Assembly (NCBI GenBank): GCA_009782405.1
Contig: WRJC01000001.1
Coordinates: forward strand, 129,670 to 193,669
Origin: Oscillospiraceae bacterium
Lineage (GTDB): Bacteria; Bacillota_A; Clostridia; Oscillospirales; WRJC01
Direction: 5' to 3'
DNA: 64,000 nt
Positions 2,244-21,248 of this stretch are shown one piece after another. The position numbers and the translations under genes are program-made. Position 1 is the first letter of the stretch; the number at the start of each line of letters is the position of its first letter. The notes beneath the pieces are model-generated. The model was not told the origin of the DNA and made no database searches. It was given only the letters and a program-made list of their open reading frames with translations.

Positions 2244-2274
2244 GCAATGTCCATCCTTTCATGTTCGGCATATT

Positions 2275-5400: not shown

Positions 5401-5443
5401 GCTAAAATTTCCTTCCATAGTATCCATGCCGCGCATATTGCTG

Positions 5444-6886: not shown

Positions 6887-6909
6887 AAGCTATTCCTTTC
6901 TTTGCCATC

Positions 6910-6948
6910 AAGGGGCAGTCACTATTTGTAAAGGCATCACTGCCCCTT
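6910..6948. other. Intra-operon hairpin with T run on the plus side
   Basis: A 10-bp perfect stem (AAGGGGCAGT pairing with ACTGCCCCTT) lies in the 109-bp gap between the DUF4234-FHA gene and the protease-FHA gene. The T run is on the plus strand, so it is not a classical terminator for the minus-strand operon. It may process or stabilise the mRNA, or lower expression of the last genes. Confidence 0.45.
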
Positions 6949-6995
6949 TTTCAAATTAAATTTTTTCGAGCCCGCCAAATACGGAAAATGATTTG

Positions 6996-8327
6996 TCAAT
7001 CAAGCCGGAAGGTGTTTTTTTCATTTGCGAGTTGCAAAACAGTACCGTGTTGTTGGATAGTTTCGATGCCCGGCTGGAGTTTTTGCCCGTTCGCCCATGT
7101 CCCGTTGGAAGAATAATCCCTGACGAGATATACGCCCCGATTCGTGTCATAACTGATACCAACGTGTTTGCGGCTGATTTCTTTGTAAGCAGACTCAATA
7201 ATGATGCTCGATGCATTCGCATCTTTACCAATTATGATCTCCTCGCCTGCCGCAAGGTCGAAATGATAGCCCGCGCAAGTACCGGACAAGCCTGCAATGC
7301 TACCCGAAGTAATAGCAATAGTGCCTCCACCCTGCGAACCTGAATAATCCGGAATAACAGGATAATCAAAAGCGCTGCCATCCACGATTTTGGGCAAAGA
7401 CTTTATGGAATGGTTGTTTATAGAAGGATAATATTCATATCCCATCGGCTCGAAAGGCCTTGCGCCGTTGCGGTAAATATTGGAGTAACGATTGATATTT
7501 TTTGTGATGAAGAAGAAGGAAAACAAACTGCCCGTAGTCAATTCGCATCCAAACAACATGAGCGGAATTGCACATATCGTCAAAATCACAACAGCGGCTA
7601 AGAATGCGCCGGCGGAATTGGCCAATGTAATCAGCCACGCGATTGTGAGCGGCAGCAGCATCGAAAGCGAAAATATAATAACCGTAATCGGGACAAACAA
7701 CAAATTTATGACTGTCCTGAAAAGAAAAACATCGGCTCCGCGTTCTTTTACCACGAGATCGAAGCGGTGCGCATTCAAACTCAATCGATTGGCCTGTTTG
7801 TACCACCAATAATTCAAATATAAGCTGCTGACGGCGGATCCCAGCCAAGTAAACAAAACTCCAAAAACTAAAATACAACTGAATACAACAAACGCCTGCG
7901 ATATGCCGGGGAAAGAAACGGGAAGAGGCGGAACCGGTCCGCCCGCTAAAATGGAAGACAGCCATCCACCTACCAATGGAATAGAGGATAGCAAATTGCT
8001 TACTATGGTAAAAACCCATCCGCCTATTAACGGAATGCCGGACAAAAAACTGCCTATCGCGGAAAGGAACGACAACCATCCGAATATATTTAAGCTGCCG
8101 CTTCCCGCGATAACCCCAATAATCAAGCCAAAAATCAACCCGAAAAATGTGGGGATGCTGCGAATCAAAACGGCTCCCGCATAACCGAAAGCAGGCTGTT
8201 CGCCGTCACCTTTGCAAAGAGCATTGATTTCGTCACCAATCTGCTGATTGACAACAAGTCCATATATTCCCAAAGTCAGGCAGTTTAACAGCACATACGT
8301 GGAAAATTTTCTTTTTTGTATCTGCAT
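6996..8327 (-). CDS. DUF4234-like multi-pass membrane protein with C-terminal FHA domain
   Basis: The 443-residue protein opens with a DUF4234-like hairpin (NCLTLGIYGLVVNQQ, then INALCKGDGEQ). Several long hydrophobic segments follow (about 50-85, 90-125, 140-165 and 200-265). A YWWYKQANRLSLNAHRFD stretch also occurs in the neighbouring 178-residue protein. The C-terminal 110 residues are an FHA domain (IIIGKDANA, ISRKH, SSNGT), again with GK for GR. The ATG overlaps the stop of the upstream gene (TAATG), so translation is probably coupled. The two genes look like paralogues, one of them fused to FHA. Function is unknown; a membrane scaffold is possible. Confidence 0.8.
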   Translation of the reverse strand: MQIQKRKFSTYVLLNCLTLGIYGLVVNQQIGDEINALCKGDGEQPAFGYAGAVLIRSIPTFFGLIFGLIIGVIAGSGSLNIFGWLSFLSAIGSFLSGIPLIGGWVFTIVSNLLSSIPLVGGWLSSILAGGPVPPLPVSFPGISQAFVVFSCILVFGVLFTWLGSAVSSLYLNYWWYKQANRLSLNAHRFDLVVKERGADVFLFRTVINLLFVPITVIIFSLSMLLPLTIAWLITLANSAGAFLAAVVILTICAIPLMLFGCELTTGSLFSFFFITKNINRYSNIYRNGARPFEPMGYEYYPSINNHSIKSLPKIVDGSAFDYPVIPDYSGSQGGGTIAITSGSIAGLSGTCAGYHFDLAAGEEIIIGKDANASSIIIESAYKEISRKHVGISYDTNRGVYLVRDYSSNGTWANGQKLQPGIETIQQHGTVLQLANEKNTFRLD

Positions 8328-8863
8328 TACGAAACACCCCCTATATTTACATCCGCTAATCCAGTCTGATTATAAACCCCGGCGACCCGATTTACATTTT
8401 TGATGAATTCCCATGCGGATATATAACCGAAGCTGAAAGCATCCAGCACAACAATGTCCTTGCCGCTTTCAAACATTTTAAAACCGTACCTCGGGGAATT
8501 CACCCTAAGGCGCTGCGCCAATTTATACAGCCAATAAAGACGGTATATGCCAAAAGTAATCGTGCTTAAAACTGCCGCTATGATATAACTTTCAGATTCT
8601 TGCCCGTCGCCTTCGCACAGGGCATCAATATCCATCGACAATCTGTAATAAAAATATGTTCGATACATATCTGACGAAACGCTTGCGACTACAACACCGC
8701 CGATAACAGGTATCACCAACATTGTATATAGCGCAATGAGACCACTGGTCATAATCGTAAAAATTATCCCTACTATAAATCCAAAAACCAATCCTATTCC
8801 GAAGTTTATCAACGTGCTGAGCACGAAATTCATCATGCTTCTTTCTTTTATTCTTTCCACCAT
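8327..8863 (-). CDS. DUF4234-like small membrane protein
   Basis: This 178-residue protein has two to three hydrophobic segments in its first 75 residues. It then has the pattern IDALCEGDGQESE, STITFGIYRLYWLYKL and LRVNSPRYG, typical of DUF4234 proteins. The chosen ATG has AAAGGTG 8 nt upstream; an ATG ten codons later, behind GAAAGAAGC, is an alternative. It overlaps the next gene by one base (TAATG). It shares the ALC(K/E)GDG and AxRLxxN motifs with the downstream FHA fusion, so the two may form one membrane complex. No catalytic motif is seen. Confidence 0.75.
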   Translation of the reverse strand: MVERIKERSMMNFVLSTLINFGIGLVFGFIVGIIFTIMTSGLIALYTMLVIPVIGGVVVASVSSDMYRTYFYYRLSMDIDALCEGDGQESESYIIAAVLSTITFGIYRLYWLYKLAQRLRVNSPRYGFKMFESGKDIVVLDAFSFGYISAWEFIKNVNRVAGVYNQTGLADVNIGGVS

Positions 8864-8887
8864 ATCGCGTACACCTTTCTTTCTTTA

Positions 8888-9478
8888 TTATTTTTTTTCT
8901 TCTGCTTTTATGAGGGCATCCCAATTGAACCTTTCGGAACAGCAGGGGATGAACATCAGTTTTGTTTCGCCCAAGAGCAAAACATCATTGCTTTCAATTT
9001 CTTTTGCTGACAGGACAACGTGGTCGTTGAGATAGAACAGCTCCCTTGCGTCGCCGGGTTGCACCAAAAACACGTTGCCTTTCGGTTCATACACGATTAT
9101 AGCGTGTTTATCGCGGGAAACGGAACCATCTCCCCCCAAAACGACATCCATGTCGCTGTTTCGGCCTATGAAATTTCTGCCGCTTCTCAATGTGAAATCT
9201 TCTCCTACATGGTTGCCCTCAATGCAAACCAACCATCCAACAACAGGTTTTAGCTCTTTGAATATGCCAATTGTAGCTTGCCCATCATCTCCTCCTGGAC
9301 CTTTCACGGTCGTATATCCAGAGTCTTCATCATCAAGGGGTTGCGTGTATATTTTCTCATTGCTTTCCTCGTCGAACCCAACGGTACTCACGCCCTTTTG
9401 ATTGCAATACGGACACCCGGCGGGGAATCGTTCAACGTCATAAAAATGACCATTTTGGCATCTGGTTGAATTGTTCAT
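8888..9478 (-). CDS. Zinc-ribbon FHA-domain protein (first paralogue)
   Basis: The 196-residue soluble protein begins with a CQNGHFYD...CPYC zinc-binding knuckle. A Thr- and acid-rich linker (SGYTTVKG) and an FHA domain (about 85-180) follow. The FHA keeps GR (FIGRNSDMD), and SRDKH matches SRxH, but the NGT region is changed to LFYLNDH. AAGGAG lies 8 nt before the ATG. Linker Thr residues such as YTTV could be kinase targets, as in GarA/OdhI-type adaptors (inference). A second copy of this architecture is at 14504-15073. It lies between the PP2C gene and the DUF4234-like genes. Confidence 0.85.
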   Translation of the reverse strand: MNNSTRCQNGHFYDVERFPAGCPYCNQKGVSTVGFDEESNEKIYTQPLDDEDSGYTTVKGPGGDDGQATIGIFKELKPVVGWLVCIEGNHVGEDFTLRSGRNFIGRNSDMDVVLGGDGSVSRDKHAIIVYEPKGNVFLVQPGDARELFYLNDHVVLSAKEIESNDVLLLGETKLMFIPCCSERFNWDALIKAEEKK

Positions 9479-9507
9479 AAAAAATTCTCCTTACAATTTA
9501 TCATATA

Positions 9508-9536
9508 TTATCGCAATATCATTTGGATATTGTAAT
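9508..9536 (-). promoter_or_regulatory. Possible secondary promoter with a dyad in its spacer
   Basis: In the 117-bp gap before the zinc-ribbon FHA gene, the minus strand reads TTACAA, 17 bp, GATAAT. A 7-bp dyad (CAATATC-ATTTG-GATATTG, 9515-9533) fills the spacer. It could be a regulated internal promoter for the second half of the operon. Match to consensus is moderate. Confidence 0.35.
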
Positions 9537-9595
9537 TGCTTTATTATAATTTTTATAACAATACTGATTAGTTTTCGTAGTGGAATTATTTCTTT

Positions 9596-11362
9596 TTATT
9601 CCCAATTATCCTCTTCCGCTTCCGTCTCCGTCTCCGTCTCCGTCTCCGCTTCCGTCTCCGTCTCCGTCTCCGTCTCCGTCTCCGTCTCCGTCTCCGTCTC
9701 CGTCTCCGTCTCCGTCTCCGTCTCCGTCTCCGTCTCCGCTTCCTCTCCGTTTCCATCTACATTATTATTTTCATATGAACTGCTCGGTGCAGGTGGATTT
9801 TGCGGTGTTTGCGTAGGTGTTGTTATCGGTTGGGGGGTAGTCGGCACAGGTGTTGTCGGTGCGGGCGTTGTAGTCGGTTGAGCGGTAGTCGGCGCGGGCG
9901 TTGTTGGCGGCTTGGCGGTTGTCGGCGCGGGCGTTGTTGTCGATGGGGGGGTAGTCGGCGCAGGTGTTGTCGGCGCAATTGTTGTTGTCGGTTGAGCGGT
10001 AGTCGGCGCGGGCGTTGTTGGCGGTTGTACGGTAGTCGATTCTGATATAGTCGGCTCGGGCGTAGTCGTTGGTTGAGTGGCAGTCGGTGCAGGCGTTGTT
10101 GGCTCTGATATAGTCGGCTCGGGTATTGTCGTCGGTTGGGCGGTAGTCGGTTCTGATATGGTTGGCTCGGTGATAGTCGCCTCCGATTCTTTTGGTTTTC
10201 CTTCTTGATTTGTAGTTTCGTTATGATTTTTGTCATCGCTCGTAAAAATCAAAAACAAACTCACAACCAATACTACTGCAAAAAGCGAAACGATGATTCC
10301 AACAATTATCGCCGGGAAAATTTTTTTCGGCTTTTTTTCATTGTTTATTGGATCAAATTCAACTTTTTCGTTTTCTTTGGTTTGCGTTGAAGGCAATTCC
10401 GAAGTCGATTTTGTTGCATCTTCGGCAGGATATACTATTTTGGTATTTATCGCATTATGCCCGGCATCGCGGGAGTCTGTATATTTGACGAGAACAACCG
10501 TGGTGTTGTCCTGGTTTTTTTTCCCTTTGGCTATTGCGCGGCTTACCAAATCATTTGCTGTATCTCTGATGCTGGATTGCGAATTTAAAATGACGTCTTT
10601 TATTTCCTCTTTGTCTAAGCTTCGATATAACCCGTCGCTGCATATCACGATATGATCCCCGTTTATCAGCTGGAACGGTTTTGCGTTCAAATCGATATGT
10701 TTTACTCCGCCCATGCCGATGAAACTGGTCAATGCTTCGCGTTTGGGATGCGAATCCGCTTCTTGCTTGGCCATCAATCCCTTTTTTACTTTTTCGTCCA
10801 ATTCAACGCCGTAAGTATGATCTATATTGATTTGTATCATTTCGTTGTTGCGTATGAGATAAATGTGGCTGTCCCCGACGGAGGCCCAATAAAGCTTGTC
10901 GCCGATTACGACAGCGCTGGCAAGGGTTGTCCCGGCTTTCAAGGGTTTTTCATTTTTATTTTTCAAGCTCGCTACAATTTTGTCGATTTTTTGAATGGAT
11001 GCCTTAAAAAATCTATCTAAATTTTCTGACACATCGGAAGAACGAAAATCTTTGTACAGCGTATTGGCGCATAGCTTGCTGGCGATTTCCCCCCCGGACA
11101 GCCCCCCCATGCCGTCGCATAAAATGGCTATCATTTTGTTTGTGTCAACATAAATGTAGTCGTTTTCTACCATGGCGGCATCTTCTTGGTTTTTGCGTTG
11201 CCCTACACTTGTAGCCACACCTGTTTGGACACGGTTTGGATACGCATCGATAAGAATCGTAACAAGCGGTTCGTCGCCATTTTGCGGCGAAGCAGCCGAT
11301 TCATTGCCCAAATGACCTTTTTGATTTTCTCCTCTTTTTTCGCTCAAATGACAACTCCCCAT
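9596..11362 (-). CDS. PP2C-type Ser/Thr phosphatase with TM and long Thr/Pro and Glu-Thr tail
   Basis: An N-terminal PP2C domain (about 45-290) carries the metal-binding motifs [32 protein letters not shown] and DNTTVV. A membrane helix ([19 protein letters not shown]) follows. After it is an outside Pro/Thr-rich tract of about 150 residues built on PTTT/EPT units, then about 45 residues of alternating Glu-Thr. The phosphatase should face the cytoplasm and the tail outward, perhaps as a stalk or glycosylation target. The ATG at 11362 has a weak ribosome site. A TTG at 11347 has GGGGAG 7 nt upstream and may be the true start. It follows the kinase-FHA gene by 37 bp, so kinase and phosphatase are probably co-expressed. 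Confidence 0.9.
9625..9738. repeat. Hexanucleotide microsatellite (TCTCCG) encoding Glu-Thr repeats
   Basis: There are four perfect TCTCCG units at 9625-9648, one variant unit, then fourteen perfect units at 9655-9738. On the coding strand these read as GAG and ACG codons in alternation. Since the unit is two codons, slippage would change tail length without breaking the frame. Confidence 0.95.
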
Positions 11363-11399
11363 TTCGATTTTGATTATCCGAATTTAAAGCGCATGACAT

Positions 11400-12755
11400 T
11401 TATTTTAAGTTTGCGACCATCATATTGTTTTTTGAAACCAAATAGAATTTGGTTCCGGGTGGAATTTCGTATTCTTTGTTTGGCTCAAGCCGCCGCCCGT
11501 TTGCAAGAAATGTGCCATTTACCGATTTTGCGTCCGAAAGGTAAAAACTATGTCGTTTTTCGTCATATCGAATAATGCAATGTACCCGGCTTATGTTTTT
11601 GTCGCTGTCTAAACCCAAACTGCTTCCTTGTTTGCGCCCTATCTGCAATACATCATTTTTGGGGATCTGGGCATTGCCTCGGGGTTTTCCCGCAATCAGC
11701 GAAGACACGGTAGGCACAGATTGCGCAGGGGTCAGGCGGAATGACTCAAGTTCTCGACGGGGATTCTGCGATGTATTTATGTTTGGCATATCGATATCAT
11801 CTAACAATTGCTTGAAGTCCTGATAGCGTCGCCTGTAATCCAATTCCATTCCTTTTTCGATGACATCCGATGTCCGTTTTGTAACTTTGCAACCCAATGA
11901 ATACAGGGAAGGTTGTTTTTCCCGATAACGGAAAAGCGCGTCTATCAAAGGTCTGCCCGATACTATCGTATAGAAAGTCGCGCAAAGCGCATATACATCC
12001 GACCAAGGCCCTTGGGCACCTTTCGTGTTGTATTGTTCCGGCGGAGCGAAACCGGGTTTCAGCAATATGGACATGCCTTTGTTTTGGTTGCTGACGAAGT
12101 TTCTTGCCGCCCCGAAATCTATAAGCTTGATTTGGTTGTTTTTAGTGATTATGATATTTTCAGGGCTCAAATCCCGGTGCAGGATATTCATTCGGTGGAT
12201 TTCCATTAATGAACTCGCCACGGTAACCAATACGGTTTTAGCAAATTCCGGATTTACGGTGCCTCCATTGGCCTTGGCCATTTTCCTCAGATCCTGACCG
12301 TCCAAATATTCCATTACCAAATAAGAAGTGTTGTTTTGCGTGAAATAGTGCAATATATCCACGACTACGGGATTATTGATGAGTTTTATGAGATTTCTGG
12401 CTTCCTCGACGAATTTTTCTTTTCCGTGTTCAAATACATATTTTGATTTTGTGTCGGGGAAGGGGCATATGTTTTGGTTATTTTTGTCGCGGATCGCATA
12501 CTCGGAAGGTATATATTCTTTGATCGCGCAAATCCGGCCGTTCGAATTGTCTTTTGCTATATAAGTGATTCCAAATCCGCCTTTTCCCAGCGTTCGCCCA
12601 AGGAGATAACGGTTGTTCAGAGTTGTGAACAGCGGAAGCGACGAGAACGGCATTTTCATAGTGGCAATGTCGAAACCGCATTGGCGGCATAATGAACCTC
12701 CATTCGTTTTCTGAAAACAATTGGGGCAATTGTCATAATTTAAATTTACGCTCAT
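11400..12755 (-). CDS. Ser/Thr protein kinase with zinc ribbon and C-terminal FHA domain
   Basis: The protein starts with a zinc ribbon (CPNC, CRQCG). A Hanks-type kinase domain (about 48-320) follows: glycine loop LGKGGFGITY, Lys in CAIKEY, HRDLSPENI, DFGAARN and APPEQY. A short linker leads to an FHA domain with intact GR (IGRKQGSS), SRVH and VNGT. No membrane segment is visible, so it is a cytosolic kinase that can read phosphothreonine as well as write it. The ATG lies 9 bp after the end of the VWA-FHA gene. All catalytic residues are present, so activity is likely. Targets may include the neighbouring FHA proteins (inference). Confidence 0.93.
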   Translation of the reverse strand: MSVNLNYDNCPNCFQKTNGGSLCRQCGFDIATMKMPFSSLPLFTTLNNRYLLGRTLGKGGFGITYIAKDNSNGRICAIKEYIPSEYAIRDKNNQNICPFPDTKSKYVFEHGKEKFVEEARNLIKLINNPVVVDILHYFTQNNTSYLVMEYLDGQDLRKMAKANGGTVNPEFAKTVLVTVASSLMEIHRMNILHRDLSPENIIITKNNQIKLIDFGAARNFVSNQNKGMSILLKPGFAPPEQYNTKGAQGPWSDVYALCATFYTIVSGRPLIDALFRYREKQPSLYSLGCKVTKRTSDVIEKGMELDYRRRYQDFKQLLDDIDMPNINTSQNPRRELESFRLTPAQSVPTVSSLIAGKPRGNAQIPKNDVLQIGRKQGSSLGLDSDKNISRVHCIIRYDEKRHSFYLSDAKSVNGTFLANGRRLEPNKEYEIPPGTKFYLVSKNNMMVANLK

Positions 12756-12764
12756 GTTTATCCC

Positions 12765-14510
12765 CTATATCGAAAAAGAAATAAATATATCCGAAAGCCC
12801 CGCAAATATTTTGTCTCCGGTTGAAAGGCGCTGGCTGGCGTTGATCTTTATCCCGTTCAGCATGGTGCCGTTTCTGGAATTCAAATCCATGAGCGCCAAA
12901 TTGCCATTTTGATTTTCTATGGCAAAATGTTGGCGGGACATTTTTGTATCGTCGATATATAAATCGCACGCATCGGATCGGCCTACAATCAAACTGCTGG
13001 AAATATCTACCGATACATTCTGCTCCGATGTATTGCCCGTTTTTATGCGCAGCGAAACGCGGATGCCGGGAGGGGCTTTTATGTGGTGCTTGACTTTTTT
13101 TATTCCGTTTGATTCATATTCGTTCACTTCAAGTTCGTTTCCGCTTTGGCCGATACCGGGGAGCACGGGGATATTGCCATCGTTATTTTCCGATTTGTTC
13201 TTTTTGTTAGTTGCCAGTAAAACGCCTATCATCAAAAGTGCCAGCAAAACAAACCCGACGACAATCAAAACGATAATCCACGAAAACTCTGAATTTGACC
13301 CATTTGCGACATGATCCAATTTAAGTTCGAAATACGCATTTTTTATGAGTTTGTTCGCTTCCATGGAACAATCTGTGATTCCATTGAAAATCATCGTAAA
13401 TTTCCCGGAATACGACGCATCTAATATTAGGTTTGCTGCTTGCCTGTCCGCGAAATATTTGACTTCCTTGATATTCAACTTTTTTCCGCTGCTGGTTTCG
13501 GTTATATCGAAAGCCGAAATTTTATCGGCGTTTTTGACATCTTTCGTAAAATAGACGGCAAGAGTGTTGTTGTCTTCGTCAAAGGTGATCCTATTTGTTT
13601 CGGGTGCAACATTGTCAGGAATCCAATTGACGACGGGGACGTTTATATTTGCCTGTATGTCCCCTATTTTTACGGATAGCAGCCTGTCGTCGCCATTGAC
13701 AAAATTGCTGCCCGCTTTCAATTTCAAAAGTGTCACGTCGTTGACAGAAGCGATTATTTCGTCAAATGTGCCATCATAAACATTTCCTTTCATCATCGTC
13801 AAAAAACCGCCGGAAGCCCGCGCAATCCTCCCGAAATCATCCGATGCATCCCGCGATGCATGGGGCGCGCAAACGGCATACAACGGAAAATTGCGCGCTT
13901 CATATAATGATATGGCTTCTTCATAAGTGGAATTTCCTTTTTGGTAATCCATTCCATCGGAAAAAACCAATATGTATTCGCGGTCAAAGCTGCTTTGGGC
14001 AGCGTTTGCATAATTATATGCTTGGATCAATGTTTCATAAAACAAAGTCCCGTTTTCGTTGATGCTTAAATTTGAAACAGCCTCACGGATTTCGCTTTCG
14101 CTTTCTCCGCCCGACAAAACAAATTTTATCGATGTGCCGAAAGTTATAAGCACCAAATGGTCATTTGGCCCCATGCTGTTTACATAATCTTCGATGCAAC
14201 TTTTTACGTTGTCCATGATATTGCTCATAGAACCTGACAAATCGACAACCATATATGCACGGACTGAATGTTTTTTTTGGTCATATGCTTCCGAACTCAT
14301 CACTTTGAGTTTTTCTTCCCCCAGAGTTGATGCGATGTCGCTTGCATTGTATCCCGATCCTTTGACTTCCACAGTTATTTCAGGCATGAATATATATGCC
14401 CTGACAATGCTCAGCACATCATACCCGTCTACCGAGATATTGAAGATAAATAGGATTGACAGCGTTAAAGCTACAAACCAAACGCCTATTCTTTTTAGTG
14501 CCATTACCAT
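12765..14510 (-). CDS. Membrane protein: outside VWA domain, TM, cytosolic FHA domain
   Basis: The 581-residue protein has an N-terminal membrane segment (about 5-25) and a VWA domain (about 85-280). The metal site is complete (DLSGSMSN, Thr in ENGTLFYE, FSDGMD). A beta-rich region, a membrane helix (WIIVLIVVGFVLLALLMIGV) and a basic/acidic linker follow, then an FHA domain with full consensus (VGRSDACD, SRQH, RNGT). The first ATG has AAGGTGG about 8 nt upstream and overlaps the previous gene by 7 nt; an ATG two codons later would give a TAATG overlap. Unlike the VWA-FHA gene at 258-2243, its FHA keeps every phosphate-contact residue. It may tie outside adhesion to kinase signalling. Confidence 0.88.
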   Translation of the reverse strand: MVMALKRIGVWFVALTLSILFIFNISVDGYDVLSIVRAYIFMPEITVEVKGSGYNASDIASTLGEEKLKVMSSEAYDQKKHSVRAYMVVDLSGSMSNIMDNVKSCIEDYVNSMGPNDHLVLITFGTSIKFVLSGGESESEIREAVSNLSINENGTLFYETLIQAYNYANAAQSSFDREYILVFSDGMDYQKGNSTYEEAISLYEARNFPLYAVCAPHASRDASDDFGRIARASGGFLTMMKGNVYDGTFDEIIASVNDVTLLKLKAGSNFVNGDDRLLSVKIGDIQANINVPVVNWIPDNVAPETNRITFDEDNNTLAVYFTKDVKNADKISAFDITETSSGKKLNIKEVKYFADRQAANLILDASYSGKFTMIFNGITDCSMEANKLIKNAYFELKLDHVANGSNSEFSWIIVLIVVGFVLLALLMIGVLLATNKKNKSENNDGNIPVLPGIGQSGNELEVNEYESNGIKKVKHHIKAPPGIRVSLRIKTGNTSEQNVSVDISSSLIVGRSDACDLYIDDTKMSRQHFAIENQNGNLALMDLNSRNGTMLNGIKINASQRLSTGDKIFAGLSDIFISFSI

Positions 14511-15073
14511 ATACGCCCCACCTTACAAAATGGAATAAAAATATATTCGCTTTCACCGGCAGAAATAAGGTCGCCCTCAAAAAGTTCTTGGTCATTGCCC
14601 AAATGGTTCCCGTTTATATAAGTGCGCCCGGATCCGGCGACGATATAAAAAAGATTGCTTTTCGGGTCATAAATAACAGAAAAATGTTTTTCCCGGGATA
14701 TAGACAAATCATCTGATAATACAACATCCATATCCATGGAGCGTCCGGCGTAATTGCGCCCTCTATGCAGGGTGTAGCTTTTGCCCTTGGCAAAACCCTT
14801 AACGCAAACCAACCACCCCGCAGTGAACAAATTTTCCATTTCGTTTGATGGAAAATAAACGGTTTTGTCCCCCTCGTCCACCAATTCGCCGTAATATTCG
14901 GTCAATTGGTTTTCATCGTTTGAAGAGCTTGTTCCCATGAAAACCGTTTGCTGTTCCCTCAAATTGCCGTTTTCGTATAAATCAGGCAAATTGTTTTCTT
15001 TGGCGCAAAAGGGGCAAACACCATCTTTGGCGTCGTCATAATAATGTTGCCGGTTACATTGAACAATCGCCAT
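14504..15073 (-). CDS. Zinc-ribbon FHA-domain protein (second paralogue)
   Basis: The 189-residue soluble protein begins QCNRQHYYDD...CPFC, a zinc knuckle like that of the 196-residue paralogue at 8888-9478. The linker contains Thr motifs (QQTVF, DKTVYF) resembling phospho-acceptor sites of FHA adaptors. The FHA domain (about 95-185) keeps GR (YAGRSMDMD) and SREKH, while the NGT loop reads SGRTYINGN. It starts 4 bp after the PP2C gene ends and overlaps the VWA-FHA gene. The two paralogues differ mainly in the linker, suggesting different partners. Confidence 0.85.
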   Translation of the reverse strand: MAIVQCNRQHYYDDAKDGVCPFCAKENNLPDLYENGNLREQQTVFMGTSSSNDENQLTEYYGELVDEGDKTVYFPSNEMENLFTAGWLVCVKGFAKGKSYTLHRGRNYAGRSMDMDVVLSDDLSISREKHFSVIYDPKSNLFYIVAGSGRTYINGNHLGNDQELFEGDLISAGESEYIFIPFCKVGRIW

Positions 15074-15077
15074 GCAT

Positions 15078-15827
15078 TCACCTACTCACTTTAACTAAAA
15101 TAGCGGAAAAATTGTCCATATCCTGCCCGGTTCCGGCAATTTTTGCTTTGGTTGCCATAGCCAGGAGCGCTTCGCGGGCTGATTTGTACTTTCTTAATTG
15201 TTCGGCCATGGATTTTTCCTCAATCCATTCCCAAAATCCGTCGGAGCAAAGAAGAAAAACATCGCCTTTTTGCAACTTCCATTTTCGTTCGCCGATTTCA
15301 TAAATCGGAGAATCCAAATCCCATTCAGTCCCCATTGCCCTGAGTAAAATGTTCCGGTCGGGATGGCGCCGGATTTCTTTTTCTTTGATCTGGCCGCTTA
15401 TAGCCAACATTTGCGGGACGCTGTGGTCCAAAGTGCGCTTCAGGACTTTGCCGCTCCGGAAAAGATAAAGCCTGCTATCTCCGATATGCCCCCATTGGGC
15501 GATGCCCGAAGAATTTATTATAAGCAATACCATCGTTGTTTTTATTGAGACATACCCGGTTCGCTCTTTTTCTTCCATGAGCATTTTCTGTGAATTCTCA
15601 AAGCATTGATCGATAAAACCTTCTGAAATACTATCGATGCCGTTTATGGCGGCACCAACGCTTTCGGCCACGCAACGGGAGGCAATTTCGCCGTTCCCGT
15701 GCCCGCCTAACCCATCCGCCAACACAAAACCGCGAACCGTATGTTTTTCATTTATAAATGTTCTGACAGTATCTTCATTGCGTTCTTTTTCGCCGGCATT
15801 GGTGAAACTCGCATAATCTATTACCAT
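15078..15827 (-). CDS. PP2C-family Ser/Thr protein phosphatase (soluble)
   Basis: This is a compact 249-residue PP2C with every metal-site motif: RNED near residue 17, ADGLGGHGNGE, GHIGDSRLYLFR, CSDGFWEW and DNFSAILV. The length fits the bacterial PrpC/Stp family and no membrane segment is present. It should remove phosphate from Ser/Thr residues modified by the two cluster kinases. It lies between the MORN kinase gene and the zinc-ribbon FHA gene, an arrangement like the widespread prpC-prkC pairing in Bacillota. Confidence 0.93.
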   Translation of the reverse strand: MVIDYASFTNAGEKERNEDTVRTFINEKHTVRGFVLADGLGGHGNGEIASRCVAESVGAAINGIDSISEGFIDQCFENSQKMLMEEKERTGYVSIKTTMVLLIINSSGIAQWGHIGDSRLYLFRSGKVLKRTLDHSVPQMLAISGQIKEKEIRRHPDRNILLRAMGTEWDLDSPIYEIGERKWKLQKGDVFLLCSDGFWEWIEEKSMAEQLRKYKSAREALLAMATKAKIAGTGQDMDNFSAILVKVSR

Positions 15828-15872
15828 AAAATCCTATTCTCCGATAAACAGTATGACAGTGATGATAGTGTA

Positions 15873-17285
15873 TTAAGGAAGCGGATATGGATTTCCGTTT
15901 TCAAAACCATATACAAATCTTCCCTCTTCAAAATAACCGTCATACACAATACCATTCGCCGTTGTATATATCCCATTGCCGCTTGGTGCGCCGTCCACAA
16001 AATTTCCTTCATATATACTGCCATTTGTCCATATTATTTTTCCTTTGCCAGACAGTTCTTCTTCAAAATAACCGTCATACACAATACCATTCGCCATTGT
16101 ATATATCCCCTTGCCGCTTGGTTCGCCGTTCACGAAATTTCCTTCATATACATCGCCATTTGTCCATTTATATACCCCATGTCCCGATTTGATCCCGTTA
16201 ACATAATTTCCTTTATATTCGCCGTCATCGTATATTTGTGTGTTGTAACCATTTGGTAACGAAGTTGGCATTTTTTCAGGTTCAGACAATATAGAAGTGG
16301 GAGCGGTATTATAAAGCGGAAGCGTTGTCAACATTTCCGTCGCAGGCAATGCGGCACTATTGATGGGAGTAACAGGAGCAACAGCAGGGGAAAATGCCAA
16401 AACGACAACAAGGACAACAACTAACATGAAAATGGCAAGTGACGATACGACGGCGACTGTTGTGGAAAAAGATTTATGGGGTGAATTGCTTGAATGTAAT
16501 CTTTCAAGATCCGAAAGAATTTCATCGCAGGAATTGTATCGTCCGTTGGGCGAAAATTGCGTACATTTGGTTATGATCGCTTCCAAACCGGCCGAAAGGT
16601 TTGGGTTATATTGCCGGATCGGAAACAATTCAAAAGGTTCTTCTGTGGGGTTTTTGCCTGTAAGCAAATAGTGAATCGTAATTCCCAATGCGTAAATATC
16701 CGTCCGGGAATCTATTTTCGTTTCGTTGCCGAATTGTTCCGGAGCGGCATAGCCTCTGGTTCCTATTGACGCAAACTCTTTTATATTTATGTTTTCGCCG
16801 ACTTCTATCGCAGTCCCAAAATCAAAAAGATGAATGCTTCCGTCCGGCCTCAGCATGATATTTGCCGGTTTCAAGTCGCGGTAAACAACTGTCGGTGTAC
16901 GCGTATGCATATAGCGCAGTATGTTCAATAATTGCTTAAACCATTCGATTACTGTTTCTTGCGATTGCACGCCTTTGTTTTCAATTACTTTGTCCAGCGG
17001 TTCCCCTATTATATAATCCCTGATTATGTAAATAGTTTCGCCGATGTCAACTATATCAATGATCCGTGGGAGCTGGGGGTGTTCAAGTTTTTGCAGAATA
17101 AGCGCTTCTTGCAGCAAACTTTTTTTTGCTAACTGCTGATGTTTCCCGCCATGGCGAAATTCTTTCACCACCCAGTTTTTTTGCAAGCGCTTATCTTCCG
17201 CAAGATAAACGACCGACATGCCGCCGCGGCCGATTTCCTTGATTATTTTATATCGGTTGTCAATTACTTCCCCCAAACGCGCCAA
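15873..17285 (-). CDS. Transmembrane Ser/Thr protein kinase with outside MORN repeats
   Basis: The start is a TTG with AGGAG about 10 nt upstream; no ATG fits before the glycine loop. The kinase domain (about 10-270) has IGRGGMSVVYLA, Lys in WVVKEF, YRDLKPANI (YRD rather than HRD), DFGTAIE and APEQF. A membrane helix (about 278-300) follows, then a linker, then five to six MORN-type repeats (YKGNYVNGIKSGHGVY, YEGNFVNGEPSGKGIY and so on). The inner kinase and outer MORN array make a receptor kinase; PrkC homologues instead carry PASTA repeats. MORN repeats can bind lipids or proteins, and the ligand here is unknown. It is second in the operon and just upstream of the soluble PP2C. Confidence 0.9.
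   Translation of the reverse strand: MARLGEVIDNRYKIIKEIGRGGMSVVYLAEDKRLQKNWVVKEFRHGGKHQQLAKKSLLQEALILQKLEHPQLPRIIDIVDIGETIYIIRDYIIGEPLDKVIENKGVQSQETVIEWFKQLLNILRYMHTRTPTVVYRDLKPANIMLRPDGSIHLFDFGTAIEVGENINIKEFASIGTRGYAAPEQFGNETKIDSRTDIYALGITIHYLLTGKNPTEEPFELFPIRQYNPNLSAGLEAIITKCTQFSPNGRYNSCDEILSDLERLHSSNSPHKSFSTTVAVVSSLAIFMLVVVLVVVLAFSPAVAPVTPINSAALPATEMLTTLPLYNTAPTSILSEPEKMPTSLPNGYNTQIYDDGEYKGNYVNGIKSGHGVYKWTNGDVYEGNFVNGEPSGKGIYTMANGIVYDGYFEEELSGKGKIIWTNGSIYEGNFVDGAPSGNGIYTTANGIVYDGYFEEGRFVYGFENGNPYPLP
15926..16150. repeat. 135-bp near-identical tandem repeat in the MORN region
   Basis: Two nearly identical stretches starting at 15926 and 16061 are 135 bp apart, equal to 45 codons or about two MORN units. 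Similarity at the DNA level suggests recent duplication and possible copy-number change. Confidence 0.8.
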
Positions 17286-17321
17286 TTGCCTGTCACTCCT
17301 ATCTGCCTCGAATAATTCTCT

Positions 17322-18077
17322 TCATTGAATATCCTCATCTGCGCTTTTTGTTTCTTCGTCTATAGCTAAAAAAATCGTTTCGCTTTCGTTTTCATCATCA
17401 TTGTAAAAAAAGCTGGTTTTTTCTTCATCTTCATAATCGAAATCAACATCGTCAGCTTCGCCGTCATGTTCCAAAAAAGGCACTGTCACGAAATCTTCCG
17501 CCTTTTTTTGCAAATTACGAAAATTGTTCGACGGCAGGATTGGTACGGATTTTGAACTGTATATTTTTAATTCGTTATTGATTTGAATTAACGCATCATC
17601 TTCGCTCCAAGCGTTTCTTACGATATTGAGCAATCGTTGCCGCATTTCATACGGCAAAGCAAACAAGCGGACGATTCGTTTGAACAGTTTTTTTGCGTTG
17701 AATTGCTCTTTGTTGACCAACGGCAAAACAATCAGCCGCAAATGCCCATTTCGAACAAAAATCGTGTCGATTTCCATGAAAATGTTGCAATATGGTATGC
17801 TTAATTTTTTGCATTCGTTGAGGATGCTAAAATGCTCCGAAAGGAAAAACGCCAAATTATTGAATTGATTGTCGATATAATTTTTCAAGCTGTATGAACC
17901 TTTTATATCGTAGGCAATTATATGCCGGGAACCTTCAAGGTGATAGGAACACGCCAAAAAATTCGGATAAATTCCTGATGCCAATAAATTCAATAAATTT
18001 AAATCTATTTCCGTGTTCATTGGCGCTATGAAACGTATGGTGTTCCCATCTCTGACATATTTTATTTGATTTTTCAT
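17322..18077 (-). CDS. DUF6382-like protein with acidic tail, first gene of the FHA/kinase operon
   Basis: The ATG at 18077 is chosen; a TTG five codons earlier has no ribosome site. Residues about 20-165 resemble the DUF6382 domain (IAYDIKGSYSLKNYI, then a short strand IDTIFVRNGHLRLIVLPL). From memory of the family, that domain usually sits in front of an FHA domain; here none is fused. The last 50 residues are very acidic with isolated Thr (EKTSFF, SETIF), which could be phospho-acceptors. No membrane segment is seen. It heads the operon, 83 bp from the left repeat of the inverton, so its 5' leader would carry the junction. Function is unknown. Confidence 0.65.
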   Translation of the reverse strand: MKNQIKYVRDGNTIRFIAPMNTEIDLNLLNLLASGIYPNFLACSYHLEGSRHIIAYDIKGSYSLKNYIDNQFNNLAFFLSEHFSILNECKKLSIPYCNIFMEIDTIFVRNGHLRLIVLPLVNKEQFNAKKLFKRIVRLFALPYEMRQRLLNIVRNAWSEDDALIQINNELKIYSSKSVPILPSNNFRNLQKKAEDFVTVPFLEHDGEADDVDFDYEDEEKTSFFYNDDENESETIFLAIDEETKSADEDIQ

Positions 18078-18159
18078 TTTACCCAAAAACAACTATCAAG
18101 CATATTCATTCAAATGATTCAAAGCTAAGTGCGTATCGCTCTTGTATGCATATTATTTT
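18078..18159 (-). promoter_or_regulatory. Operon leader without a recognisable fixed promoter
   Basis: These 82 bp between the left inverted repeat and the first operon gene hold no -35/-10 pair close to consensus on the minus strand. The best candidate (TTGAAT, 17 bp, TTGATA) is poor. Only a weak GGGT lies before the ATG. Expression therefore seems to depend on transcription entering from the invertible segment. Confidence 0.55.
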
Positions 18160-18190
18160 TTTCGTAAAGCATGGCCCTTTACGAATGAAA
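18160..18190 (+). repeat. Left 31-bp inverted repeat, recombinase core site
   Basis: Arms TTCGTAAAG (18161-18169) and CTTTACGAA (18177-18185) flank the spacer CATGGCC (18170-18176). The copy is an exact reverse complement of 19668-19698. Identity stops one base beyond each end. Confidence 0.95.
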
Positions 18191-18239
18191 TTGGAAAATT
18201 CGCATAAACATTGAATTTTTTGGCTTTCTGACGGCTTAC

Positions 18240-18253
18240 TTGACGGCGCAAAA
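18240..18253 (+). repeat. 14-bp direct repeat TTGACGGCGCAAAA, left copy
   Basis: The same 14 bases occur at 19479-19492 in the same direction, so the pair brackets the recombinase gene. A partial copy (CTGACGGCTTAC) precedes the left one. They may be arm-type binding sites or insertion footprints. Confidence 0.7.
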
Positions 18254-18255
18254 AA

Positions 18256-19395
18256 TTATATCCCGATATATTGTTCCAATTTGTTCATTCCCTCACGCTT
18301 TTGCTCGAAAGATGAATGAACGTAACAGTTGAGCGTGATATTGACATTGGCATGGCCGAGCATTTCGCTGAGGGATTTTATGTCCACTCCTGCTTCGATA
18401 CAGCGAGTGGCAAACGAATGGCGCAAACAATGGAAATTTGCACCGGCAATATTTGCGGCTTTCAAGTTTTTCGCAAAATGGTTCTGCATGGTACGCGGTT
18501 CTGTAAAAATCGATTTTGGAGTATTCAAAAAATATTCATTGCTTTCGCAGACAAAATTGCGCAAATACGGCGATAAAAATTTGGGGATTGGCACATCTCT
18601 CGTGGAACGCTGGCTTTTCGGAATGTCTATTATGATTTTTGTTTTAGTTCCATCGCCGTTTATGTTTTTGATCCGTTGCAGCGTCTGCCGAACGGACAAC
18701 ACATCATACCCGGAAGATATATCTTTCCATTGCAATGCGCATAATTCGCCGATCCGGATTCCGGTATAAAGGCAGAGCAATATGCCCAATTTATGAATGT
18801 CAATGCCATCTTTCAAAATATTTTCCAGAGATGTTTGCTCCTGACGCGACAATACGCGCATTGATTTTTGCTGGTTTTTCGGGTAGGTTATAACAAACCC
18901 GCCATTGATGATTTTTTCTTTTTCGGCGAAAAAAAATATCGCTTTTATGATGGAAAGCATATCGCTCACGGTTTTTGCCGATAGGCCGCCATTACCGTCC
19001 GTGCGTCCGTTTTCCAGCTTTTCTTTCGAAAAACATCCGATTTCTTTTGCCGACAAACCTTGCATTTTGCGTTTTCCAAGCAATGGGATAATGTGTAAAT
19101 TTAATATGTTTTTATACTCGGCGAATGTAGAAGGCTTTACTTTCAGCGATATGGCGGACAGCCATTTGCTTGTGACATCGGCAAAAGTTAAATTTTGATT
19201 TTCGGTTTCGGCAACAAGCGGCGAAGGCATGAATTTTCCAAAAACAAAAACCGAAAGTTTTTGTTTTATTTCCGTGCAGGTTTTTCCGTATACGGAACCA
19301 TAAACGATTTTGCCGTTGCCATTGCGTTCTTTAATGTAGCGGCCTTCCCAGCGACCATCTTTGCGTTTGTATATGTTTCTTCCTGTTTTAGGCAT
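18256..19395 (-). CDS. Tyrosine recombinase/integrase, probable invertase of the flanking repeats
   Basis: The 379-residue protein has an AP2-like arm-binding N-terminus (YKRKDGRWEGRYIKER), a SAM-like core-binding domain (about 70-160) and a complete catalytic domain. Arg is in TGIRIGELCALQW, the HxxR box reads HCLRHSFATR, His is in LGHANV, and the nucleophile Tyr is in NCYVHSS. AGGAGG lies 8 nt before the ATG. It is the only gene inside the inverted repeats and would turn with the segment. No excisionase, relaxase or phage gene is nearby, so a role in local inversion is more likely than mobile-element transfer. A dyad (TTTCAAGACTTTGAAA) about 50 bp upstream may be an autoregulatory site. Confidence 0.92.
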   Translation of the reverse strand: MPKTGRNIYKRKDGRWEGRYIKERNGNGKIVYGSVYGKTCTEIKQKLSVFVFGKFMPSPLVAETENQNLTFADVTSKWLSAISLKVKPSTFAEYKNILNLHIIPLLGKRKMQGLSAKEIGCFSKEKLENGRTDGNGGLSAKTVSDMLSIIKAIFFFAEKEKIINGGFVITYPKNQQKSMRVLSRQEQTSLENILKDGIDIHKLGILLCLYTGIRIGELCALQWKDISSGYDVLSVRQTLQRIKNINGDGTKTKIIIDIPKSQRSTRDVPIPKFLSPYLRNFVCESNEYFLNTPKSIFTEPRTMQNHFAKNLKAANIAGANFHCLRHSFATRCIEAGVDIKSLSEMLGHANVNITLNCYVHSSFEQKREGMNKLEQYIGI

Positions 19396-19443
19396 GATTC
19401 TTTTCCTCCTAAAATATAAGTTTAATAGTTCATATCAATTATA

Positions 19444-19459
19444 TTTCAAGACTTTGAAA
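19444..19459. promoter_or_regulatory. Dyad upstream of the recombinase gene
   Basis: TTTCAAGACTTTGAAA is a near-palindrome about 50 bp upstream of the recombinase start, overlapping where its promoter should be. It may be an operator; no regulator can be named. Confidence 0.35.
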
Positions 19460-19478
19460 TAATCTGCTGACCAAAAAT

Positions 19479-19492
19479 TTGACGGCGCAAAA
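19479..19492 (+). repeat. 14-bp direct repeat TTGACGGCGCAAAA, right copy
   Basis: It is identical to 18240-18253 and lies 84 bp upstream of the recombinase start. Confidence 0.7.
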
Positions 19493-19615
19493 TTGATTTT
19501 ATATTTTTTGATAGGCGATTTTACCGCAAAAAAATTGATTTTCAACAATATATTTATTATTTTTACACGTTTCAAAAAAATTTTTTCAAATAATTTTAAT
19601 TTTTTTTGTATTTTG

Positions 19616-19644
19616 TTGACTTTTACGACAAACTATGTTAAAAT
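19616..19644 (+). promoter_or_regulatory. Near-consensus sigma-A promoter inside the inverton, pointing right
   Basis: TTGACT (19616-19621), a 17-bp spacer and TAAAAT (19639-19644) match consensus at ten of twelve positions. A long A/T tract upstream resembles an UP element. Transcription should start near 19651, cross the right repeat and meet the terminator at 19730-19758. No gene on the plus strand follows. After inversion the same promoter would read through the left repeat into the kinase/FHA operon with a leader of about 130 nt. Confidence 0.85.
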
Positions 19645-19667
19645 ATACAGTATCGTCGGAATATTGG

Positions 19668-19698
19668 TTTCATTCGTAAAGGGCCATGCTTTACGAAA
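19668..19698 (-). repeat. Right 31-bp inverted repeat, recombinase core site
   Basis: It is the exact reverse complement of 18160-18190. Arms TTCGTAAAG (19673-19681) and CTTTACGAA (19689-19697) flank the spacer GGCCATG (19682-19688). Confidence 0.95.
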
Positions 19699-19729
19699 TA
19701 TTGCGGCTGGCTAAAAAAAAGCGCAAAAC

Positions 19730-19758
19730 AAAAAAGCACGCTCTTTGCGTGCTTTTTT
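19730..19758. terminator. Bidirectional rho-independent terminator
   Basis: AAAAAA, stem GCACGC, loop TCTTT, stem GCGTGC, TTTTTT. It can end the solute-binding-protein operon on the minus strand, and it can stop plus-strand transcripts from the inverton promoter in the present orientation. Confidence 0.9.
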
Positions 19759-19781
19759 CGTTTTGTCTGCTTCTCTTTGCC

Positions 19782-21248
19782 CTACCCCCCGGCAGTAAAA
19801 AACGCTTCGATGGCCTTGTCGAGGGTGGCCGCGACCTTGCTTTCCGCTTTCTCTGTCACGGATACGAAAGTGTTCTTTTTGTTGGTGAAAAGCCCCTCGT
19901 ACTGGGAGCGGCCCACGGAAAGCCAGACGGTGTCCCCGAGGTCGGTGAAGCGGTTTGCCAGCATCATGTCGAGCATTTCGACCGATTCCTCGTCGCGGGT
20001 CGATTTCGTCTGCACGGCCAAATCGTAATAGCTCGGGATCACGCGCCTCTGGTACTCGCAGGCGAGCGCCTCCATCACCGCGGAAGCCCGGACCGGGTCG
20101 GCGGTTATCGGCACGATTATCGGAAGCCCGGTGCATACTCGGGCCGAATACGGCTCGCCCGGGCTTTTTTCGTACAGTGACGGATACGGGATTATCCCGT
20201 AGTCCACTTCCATGTTTCTCAGATTCTGCACGGTGAACATCGTCGCATTGGCGAACAGCCCCAGGCCGTCGATGAACATGGGGAATGCGTCGGTCGGGCT
20301 TCCCCATTCGGAAAGTTCGGCCCCGCTTTGGGCGTAGTCATACAGCCTGTCAAAAAGGGTGAACAGCTTCTCGTTTCCCGGCACGTTGAAATACGGCAGA
20401 TCGTCGTTGTCCTTGCCGATTATCGGGATCCGCTCCGCGCCCCAGAAACTCGGGTAGTAGAAATTGGGCGTGCACAGCACCCCGTAACGGTCGCTTTTCG
20501 TCATTTTCCCGTCGCCGTCCATATCCGATACGGCTTCGGAGGCCATCTGGTACATTTTGTCGATCGTCCATTTGCCGTCGCGCACCAGCCCGTATATGCT
20601 TTCAAGCCCCAAATCCAAAGCCAATTGCTTGTTGAAAACCAAAAAGCACACAAAATCGTATGAGGACAGCATATTCGCCCCATATGTGAAATACAGCACG
20701 TTGCCAATCGACATGTCGGTTTTTGCCGCCTGATCCCAGTACAGCTTGTCCAGATTCACATGCGAAAGCTCGGTCATGTTGTAAAAATACTTGCCCTCCA
20801 TCGCCAAATCCATCGCGTGCCTGTCCGCGATGAGCACATAGTCGTATGCGTCGTCGCCCGAGCGCACCGTGTTTTTCACGAGCCCCGGAAGCTTGTTGTA
20901 ATCATCTGAGAGTATCTGCTCGAATGCCACGTTGAACCTGTCCTGGACGAGCCTGTTTGCCATGTATATCGAATCCTCCGCCACGTCCCCGGTCTGCTCT
21001 TCGACGAGCAGGTTGATATGCACCGTGTCCAAGTTCGTGAATGAAAGCATGGTAAATTTTTCGCCGCCAAAGTCCATATCCGGCAAATCGTCGGAATATC
21101 TCGGATTTTCAACCGGCCCTTCCGCAGCATTTTCCGGAATTTCGGCATTTTCTTCGGCATTTCCCGAAATATCGCCCTGATTCGAGTCGCCGCACGCGGA
21201 AAGAAGCAAAATCAGGCAAGCGAAAATCAGGCATATTTTCTTCTTCAT
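19782..21248 (-). CDS. Extracellular solute-binding lipoprotein (family 1-like)
   Basis: The start at 21248 is chosen because AGGCGG then lies 6 nt upstream; an ATG two codons earlier would touch the ribosome site. A lipoprotein signal ends in LLLSAC with Cys19. The mature protein shares features with six other window paralogues: DMDFGG near the start, a calcium-loop-like DMDGDGKMTKSDRYG near the middle, and TRDEESVEMLD near the C-terminus. It would be lipid-anchored outside and bind a sugar or oligosaccharide for an ABC importer, but no permease is nearby. It is the last gene of a three-gene operon with the beta-helix enzyme and another binding protein. Confidence 0.85.
   Translation of the reverse strand: MKKKICLIFACLILLLSACGDSNQGDISGNAEENAEIPENAAEGPVENPRYSDDLPDMDFGGEKFTMLSFTNLDTVHINLLVEEQTGDVAEDSIYMANRLVQDRFNVAFEQILSDDYNKLPGLVKNTVRSGDDAYDYVLIADRHAMDLAMEGKYFYNMTELSHVNLDKLYWDQAAKTDMSIGNVLYFTYGANMLSSYDFVCFLVFNKQLALDLGLESIYGLVRDGKWTIDKMYQMASEAVSDMDGDGKMTKSDRYGVLCTPNFYYPSFWGAERIPIIGKDNDDLPYFNVPGNEKLFTLFDRLYDYAQSGAELSEWGSPTDAFPMFIDGLGLFANATMFTVQNLRNMEVDYGIIPYPSLYEKSPGEPYSARVCTGLPIIVPITADPVRASAVMEALACEYQRRVIPSYYDLAVQTKSTRDEESVEMLDMMLANRFTDLGDTVWLSVGRSQYEGLFTNKKNTFVSVTEKAESKVAATLDKAIEAFFTAGG

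Follow-up and report, generated by a model that had tools for sequence, protein, structure and literature searches.

Bacterial switches in which a tyrosine recombinase flips a DNA segment between inverted repeats include fimS of E. coli, with FimB and FimE, and the switches of C. difficile that are served by RecV. The invertible Hin segment of Salmonella carries its promoter inside. Recombinase genes mostly adjoin the switch on which they act and are occasionally located inside it, as with Hin, according to the excerpted text of PMC5903667. Signaling systems can be the target of such switching, and CmrRST of C. difficile is described as a phase-variable target in the excerpt of PMC6837544. Among tyrosine recombinases, the presence of an arm-binding domain points strongly to the mobility of a phage or ICE; Rci recombinases are without this domain (PMC8138268, in the sections drawn on here). 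A 2025 survey of hCom2 defines inverton group 139/invertase group 35, with 33 invertons of which 32 are from Clostridia, and the portion of that survey used here links group 139 to tyrosine-type recombinases that either intersect the inverton or lie within 5 kb of it (PMC11892184). Here, we analyze a segment (18160-19698) of the window, which is the whole 64-kb stretch of DNA under study and to which all positions refer. This segment is most likely a self-contained invertible promoter cassette, flipped by its own recombinase, that switches a neighboring convoy of kinase, FHA and PP2C genes between OFF and ON.

A putative invertible cassette beside a kinase/FHA/PP2C convoy

An earlier note on this DNA had described perfect 31-bp inverted repeats with 9-bp arms and opposed, asymmetric 7-bp spacers, a complete tyrosine recombinase and a near-consensus promoter between them, a terminator just to the right and, to the left, an operon with no visible promoter. 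These features were all found again (Table 1), the terminator as a terminator-like hairpin and the promoter as a box whose standing depends on its relatives (see below). The two 31-nt repeats are 100% complementary, with 1477 nt between them, and each holds a 25-bp core laid out as TTCGTAAAG-CATGGCC-CTTTACGAA (9-7-9); a further exact pair of 9-bp arms around a 7-bp spacer was found nowhere else in the 64 kb. Inverted recombination sites thus flank the segment, whose contents amount to one long gene, that of the recombinase. When the asymmetric spacers of two tyrosine-recombinase sites are inverted with respect to each other, recombination gives inversion and excision is excluded. Because the cores here are inverted and their spacer is asymmetric, this established mechanism permits inversion of the segment rather than its excision.

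The convoy on the left comprises 13 minus-strand ORFs (258-18077, with an ATG start) separated by gaps of -7 to 117 bp, and is likely to be expressed as a single transcript. Among the promoter-like sites listed, none on the minus strand falls between 17200 and 18787. The G+C content of the convoy is 42.5% and that of the right flank is 52%, and a search of the window for tRNA or Rfam matches returned none. The host is probably one of the Oscillospiraceae, since six of the 120 listed NusA hits carry that family name (71-88%), the best four of these at 82-88%; an origin in Kiritimatiellota, to which a single named protein had pointed, was rejected on this account. In three genomes of the nearest family, with NusA proteins 77-84% identical to that of the window, neither the recombinase (at E 1e-60) nor the VWA-FHA gene (at E 1e-20) had a match; nusA lies beside rimP in all three, and infB is there in G447 and G463. 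Cassette and operon therefore look accessory.

Table 1. Features of the cassette and of the adjoining convoy, in window positions
Feature	Position	Strand	Details
Left inverted repeat	18160-18190		core 18161-18185; 9-bp arms and asymmetric 7-bp spacer CATGGCC
3' arm-like pair	18227-18248	-	[CG]GTCA at 18245 and 18233, 12 bp apart
Tyrosine recombinase	18256-19395	-	379 aa; predicted arm-binding, core-binding and catalytic parts
Likely ribosome-binding site of recombinase	19405-19410	-	AGGAGG; from sequence
5' arm-like pair	19466-19487	-	[CG]GTCA at 19484 and 19472, 12 bp apart
Outward sigma70-like box	19616-19644	+	TTGACT-17-TAAAAT; 28 bp from right core
Right inverted repeat	19668-19698		core 19673-19697, inverted; spacer same as left copy
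Terminator-like hairpin	19730-19758		12 pairs; T run for plus strand, A run for minus strand too
First convoy gene	17322-18077	-	weak DUF6382 match, E 4.6e-4, below gathering score
Ser/Thr protein kinase with MORN repeats	15873-17285	-	
PP2C phosphatase	15078-15827	-	
FHA protein	14504-15073	-	
VWA + FHA protein	12765-14510	-	
Ser/Thr kinase + FHA	11400-12755	-	
PP2C phosphatase	9596-11362	-	588 aa
FHA protein	8888-9478	-	
DUF4234 protein	8327-8863	-	
DUF4234 + FHA protein	6996-8327	-	
Trypsin-like protease + FHA	5444-6886	-	
FHA protein	2275-5436	-	1053 aa
VWA + FHA protein with Big_2 domain	258-2243	-	last listed convoy ORF in window

The recombinase and its predicted arm-binding domain

The recombinase ORF is intact and matches Phage_integrase and Phage_int_SAM_3 in Pfam and nothing else. 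It contains R214, H322, R325, H348 and Y358, which we take to be its catalytic residues. Both by sequence and by fold, its best solved match is Tn1549 Int, the constructs of which begin past the arm domain, and the structure comparison hardly probed the N-terminal part of the recombinase. A model of the recombinase (mean pLDDT 79.9) has strands at residues 8-10, 16-24 and 30-37 and a helix at 40-52, in a block with pLDDT of 59-86. Three strands and one helix make up the arm-binding fold of the IntTn916 subgroup as given in the excerpt of PMC8138268, and the correspondence here is with a predicted model. A Pfam arm-domain match was not found in the recombinase, and some members of the IntTn916 subgroup likewise have none, according to the same excerpt of PMC8138268. 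A further marker of the subgroup, a beta-stranded insertion between catalytic strands 2 and 3, may correspond to four strands predicted at residues 232-269, a part through which the alignment with Tn1549 Int runs.

With its predicted arm-binding domain, the enzyme is better described as an integrase of the Tn916/Tn1549 type. The label “Hin-like”, given earlier to the inverton, does not fit the enzyme, whose Pfam matches do not include a serine recombinase. Nor were the direct att repeats, cargo and excisionase of an ICE or phage integrase found in the segment, with its inverted cores and single long gene. Judged from sequence, we file the recombinase as one built on the IntTn916 fold rather than as the integrase of a mobile element at 18160-19698. 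An identical protein is listed on two contigs and the window's NusA on one; the second contig may represent the other orientation or a second copy.

A family of cassettes with locus-specific spacers

Relatives of the recombinase were drawn from genome contigs, viral contigs and a phage collection. The genome scan contributed the best 80 of 587 matches, at 38-46% identity to the recombinase, and closer relatives found by protein share 60-75% identity. In the phage collection, 1914 records match the recombinase protein (best 46.7%), and three of the ten listed were taken. The viral-contig scan with the window protein alone gave no match, and the plasmid search gave one 55-base match only, which was set aside. 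The resulting set holds 94 loci with at least 37% identity, the window and near-identical copies included, and 79 of these have enough flanking sequence.

In 54 of the 76 close relatives tested (at least 37% identity), the gene lies between exact inverted repeats of 15 nt or more. By the same criterion such repeats flank 3 of 25 distant integrases, and the same geometry applied to shifted windows in the relatives gave 0 of 235. When core-motif pairs are counted along with exact ones, a pair is present in 63 of the 79 full-flank relatives, or 60 of 75 without near-identical copies; the 16 in which none was detected count against the switch reading. A spacer-matched pair was not found in 14 of the 59 loci scored in later searches, and an exact repeat was not found in 10 of 33 genus loci, some of which are cut by contig ends. 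The placing of a recombinase within its own segment, which had been called unusual at first, is common in the cassette family and not peculiar to 18160-19698. A quick tree (108 rows) places the repeat-bearing loci in one 88-row set with a support of 83, below the 95 mark. This set also includes 15 full-flank loci without a pair, the rows next outside it have no repeat pair, and 22 changes of the repeat label are required across the tree.

The spacers offer a separate view of the sites, which for this purpose were picked on their arms alone. Both sites could be placed at 61 loci, and the two 7-bp spacers, in inverted orientation, are identical in 58 of them (55 of 58 without copies); the exceptions are L016, L035 and L058. 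Across loci, spacers agree on average at 2.97 of 7 positions and are identical in 0.8% of 20,000 random pairs. When each spacer is compared with its reverse complement, at most 4 of the 7 positions match. Within one locus the arms may differ while the spacers stay the same. Strand exchange within the spacer would produce such within-locus identity.

Several loci depart from the common arrangement. L019 has a strong core site 3' of the recombinase with no 5' partner, and an equally strong site farther off, perhaps as part of a larger or multi-site inversion. The cassette recombinases of L057 and L066, which lie on separate contigs of a single MAG, are 88% identical, and the sequence beyond the cassette differs on the visible side, as if the cassette were able to spread within a genome. 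A second recombinase in several genomes of the genus of G003 (L181-L184, L187, L188), for which no site pair was detected, may be an ordinary integrase or may use other sites.

A predicted outward promoter, arm-like repeats and the likely direction of the switch

Promoter-like sites number 7 in 17200-20300, and shuffled sequence gives 6.7 +/- 2.4, which is chance frequency; terminator-like sites in the same interval number 7, little above chance (4.4 +/- 2.0 in shuffles). Because the promoter-like count is at chance, the window alone cannot establish a promoter, and the outward box is called one here because it is conserved in relatives. Sites were scored with a weight matrix in the 54 of 56 distinct cassettes that have a long enough 5' region. 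The best outward sigma70-like site has a mean z of 3.7 against shuffles, and in 50 of the 54 cassettes no more than 60 bp separate the end of its -10 element from the core. A terminator on the promoter side is present in 11 of the 56 cassettes only. In the window, the hairpin beyond the right repeat would insulate the non-target side.

The regions bordering the recombinase gene share a second element, [CG]GTCA, mostly followed by purine-A. It occurs upstream of the gene in 68 of 71 loci (shuffles 11.5), just 3' of the stop codon in 53 (shuffles 6.0) and on both sides in 52 (shuffles 1.2). Adjacent copies are spaced 12 bp apart 31 times on the 5' side and 15 times on the 3' side, and pairs spaced 10-13 bp are present on both sides in 12 of 71 loci. 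Exact k-mers common to the 5' and 3' regions were barely above control; it was motif enrichment that found [CG]GTCA. The arm-like pairs of the window are predicted to be the binding site of the recombinase N-terminal domain; CGCCGTCA occurs at 14 places on the two strands of the window together, so that the arm word alone is common there. AGGAGG is present in 39 of 71 family 5' regions, where 1.0 would be expected.

Taken together, these elements suggest how the switch may work. The recombinase made from the cassette would bind the cores and the arm-like repeats and pair the inverted cores, and strand exchange in the 7-bp spacer would then flip the segment. As drawn, the outward box is aimed away from the operon and the predicted promoter would fire into the hairpin, a state that is likely OFF because of the direction of the promoter. 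After a flip, the box would occupy 18214-18242 of the minus strand and point toward the operon, and the predicted start near 18207 would put about 130 nt of leader ahead of the ATG at 18077; the 13-gene convoy would then be transcribed, a state that is likely ON. At the level of sequence, the segment thus has the predicted outward promoter inside and the target outside, reading away from it, that are expected of an inverton.

It is also conceivable, if unlikely, that the segment inverts with the opposite effect, and that read-through of the recombinase transcript drives the operon, which would make the drawn state ON and the flipped state OFF. Recombinase and operon run in the same direction as drawn, no terminator was found between them in the window, and upstream of the recombinase there are three promoter-like sites on the minus strand. 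Against this, promoter-like sites in the window are at chance frequency, and in the family the inward consensus promoter, toward the recombinase, is not outstanding (mean z 0.08), whereas the outward one is conserved. Under the preferred reading of an outward promoter that is OFF as drawn, OFF expression may leak, as no terminator was found to separate the operon from the recombinase.

Orientation of the cassette in related genomes

Inversion of a cassette is seen most directly between two genomes of one genus, to which a genome titled Ruminococcus flavefaciens also belongs. The flanks of L221 and L230 are collinear (left, 313 bp at 88%; right, 1057 bp at 78%), and the 1.4-kb cassette between them is inverted, at 76% identity. 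L063 is oriented like L230 (91% over 2407 bp). The genus comparison gave 3 opposite-orientation pairs and 32 same-orientation pairs, and only L221/L230 match on both flanks. Five further sets of loci have one matching flank, on opposite sides of the cassette: 1) L012/L022 versus L023; 2) L018 versus L030; 3) L024/L027/L032/L179/L192 versus L190; 4) L041 versus L171; and 5) L062 versus L154. As their second flank is unmatched, independent insertion is possible in these five sets. The L012/L022/L023 and L062/L154 sets are both found with BTAD-regulator operons and may be related to each other.

Genomes titled Butyricicoccus, Blautia and Agathobaculum, together with a phage-deposited record (MT836186.1), share a near-identical stretch that includes the cassette (L006, L007, L008 and L126). 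It was rejected as evidence of flipping, as all four have the same orientation, and the stretch is probably carried by a mobile element.

The phase-switch reading of the earlier note thus gains support from the identity of spacers within loci, the conserved outward promoter-like site, one locus found inverted and the kinase operons considered below. That the switch was once active and is now locked, its repeats persisting after flipping ceased at 18160-19698, is quite unlikely. It would agree with the single orientation of the segment seen in the window and with decay in the family, in which 5 of 53 genus matches carry an internal stop and no repeat pair, exact or core-motif, was detected in 16 of 79 full-flank relatives; at 18160-19698, however, the recombinase ORF and its catalytic residues are intact, the 31-bp repeats are perfect and both arm-like pairs are present. 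Very unlikely is the reading in which a small mobile element (a minimal integrase element or an IS-like unit with terminal inverted repeats) lies before the operon by chance and inversion is not its function. It would fit the resemblance of the enzyme to Tn1549 and lambda integrases, the many unrelated genes that cassettes adjoin and the one cassette that, with its flanks, is common to genomes titled as three genera. Against it, inverted cores with an asymmetric spacer give inversion and no excision by the known integrase mechanism, one locus (L221/L230) was found inverted, and the outward promoter-like site is conserved.

Genes adjoining the cassettes

If the cassettes are promoter switches, as we prefer to read them, the genes that they face would be their targets. 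For the 55 distinct cassettes besides that of the window, a close outward-reading gene is present on the recombinase 3' side only in 21, on the promoter side only in 10, on both sides in 11 and on neither side within 400 bp in 13. The 42 of 55 with a close outward gene are about what random orientation would give, and this tally therefore offers no support by itself. For the 11 cassettes that lie between two close outward-reading genes (L012, L036, L065 and others), one flip may swap expression between two operons. Fifty of the 53 close outward genes were scanned with Pfam, with HTH_3 regulators (7) and BspA-type LRR proteins (4) among the commonest matches and response regulators (2) and BTAD regulators (2) among the others. 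At L221, the locus seen in both orientations, the target is an AAA ATPase gene; at the related locus L063, patatin and dynamin-like genes follow.

Two cassettes beside similar operons, L018 and L030, come from two other Clostridia. They stand before FHA/PP2C/kinase operons in opposite orientations, and both operons run in the order FHA protein, PP2C, Ser/Thr kinase and giant Ig-like protein (2746 and 2556 aa). The first genes have weak DUF6382 matches, below the gathering score. Further on, L018 encodes a second DUF6382-FHA protein, a MinD-like ATPase and a YukD-like protein, and L030 has ORFs that correspond to these later genes by length alone. The MORN-repeat kinase of the window is 52% identical to that of L018 and 48% to that of L030, over 263-299 aa, the PP2C proteins are about 29% identical, and the first convoy gene has no BLAST match (E 1e-3) to the first genes of L018 and L030. 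The three operons appear to be of the same kind, with first genes that are not detectably alike. In G603, no such recombinase was found within 1.5 kb of a gene that is homologous to the L030 first gene over its full length. The L030 first gene is matched in 16 of 295 genomes, in 14 of those over the FHA end alone. In the tree, the L018 and L030 recombinases belong to a six-row group (100*) and that of the window falls outside it; the pairing of cassette with kinase operon therefore seems to have arisen more than once.

Comparison with known systems

Invertible promoters, tyrosine invertases, a phase-variable signaling target and a tyrosine recombinase within an inverting locus are all known already. 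A search of published, mostly open-access papers turned up neither an arm-domain integrase that lies, along with arm-like repeats, inside an invertible promoter cassette of its own, nor a link between such a cassette and kinase/FHA operons. On balance, we lean toward a joint reading in which domesticated Tn916-type integrases form a Clostridia-wide set of promoter switches, two lineages of which control FHA/PP2C/Ser-Thr-kinase operons and make them phase-variable. If true, such a plug-in switch would consist of a single gene with arm-like repeats to either side of it, a pair of inverted cores and one outward promoter, a compact switch that would bring its own enzyme, sites and regulatory repeats. 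Switches of this kind would attach to BspA-like surface proteins, regulators and signaling operons, and whole phospho-signaling programs would be phase variable in uncultured Clostridia. A simple rule for reading genomes would follow, in which a cassette whose recombinase has its 5' side toward a gene is likely ON for that gene.

Among described switches, RecV serves several, whereas the enzyme of 18160-19698 is enclosed in its own segment and has a predicted arm-binding domain. Salmonella Hin shares with the cassette a recombinase gene inside the invertible segment (PMC5903667, excerpted text). Hin itself belongs to the serine recombinases and has an enhancer that is remote (PMC3798978, in excerpt), and the enzyme here is a tyrosine recombinase. 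The PsrA/cod hsdS inverton of S. pneumoniae is similar in that a tyrosine recombinase gene is among the genes of the inverting locus, as the excerpt of PMC12324116 describes it; PsrA reshuffles hsdS coding sequences, in contrast to the promoter cassette facing an operon at 18160-19698. Group 139/35 of PMC11892184, compared by description only, may overlap the present cassette family; in the part of the survey used here its recombinases are listed as non-intersecting genes, unlike the enclosed gene in 18160-19698. With Tn916/Tn1549-type integrases, finally, the recombinase shares Tn1549 Int as its top match and the three strands and helix predicted at its N-terminus. It differs from the integrases of ICEs and phages in that its cores are inverted and it is the only gene between them. 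As arm-binding recombinases are read as marks of phages and ICEs, and the family would be a large exception, prophage and ICE finders may mislabel resident switches of this kind.
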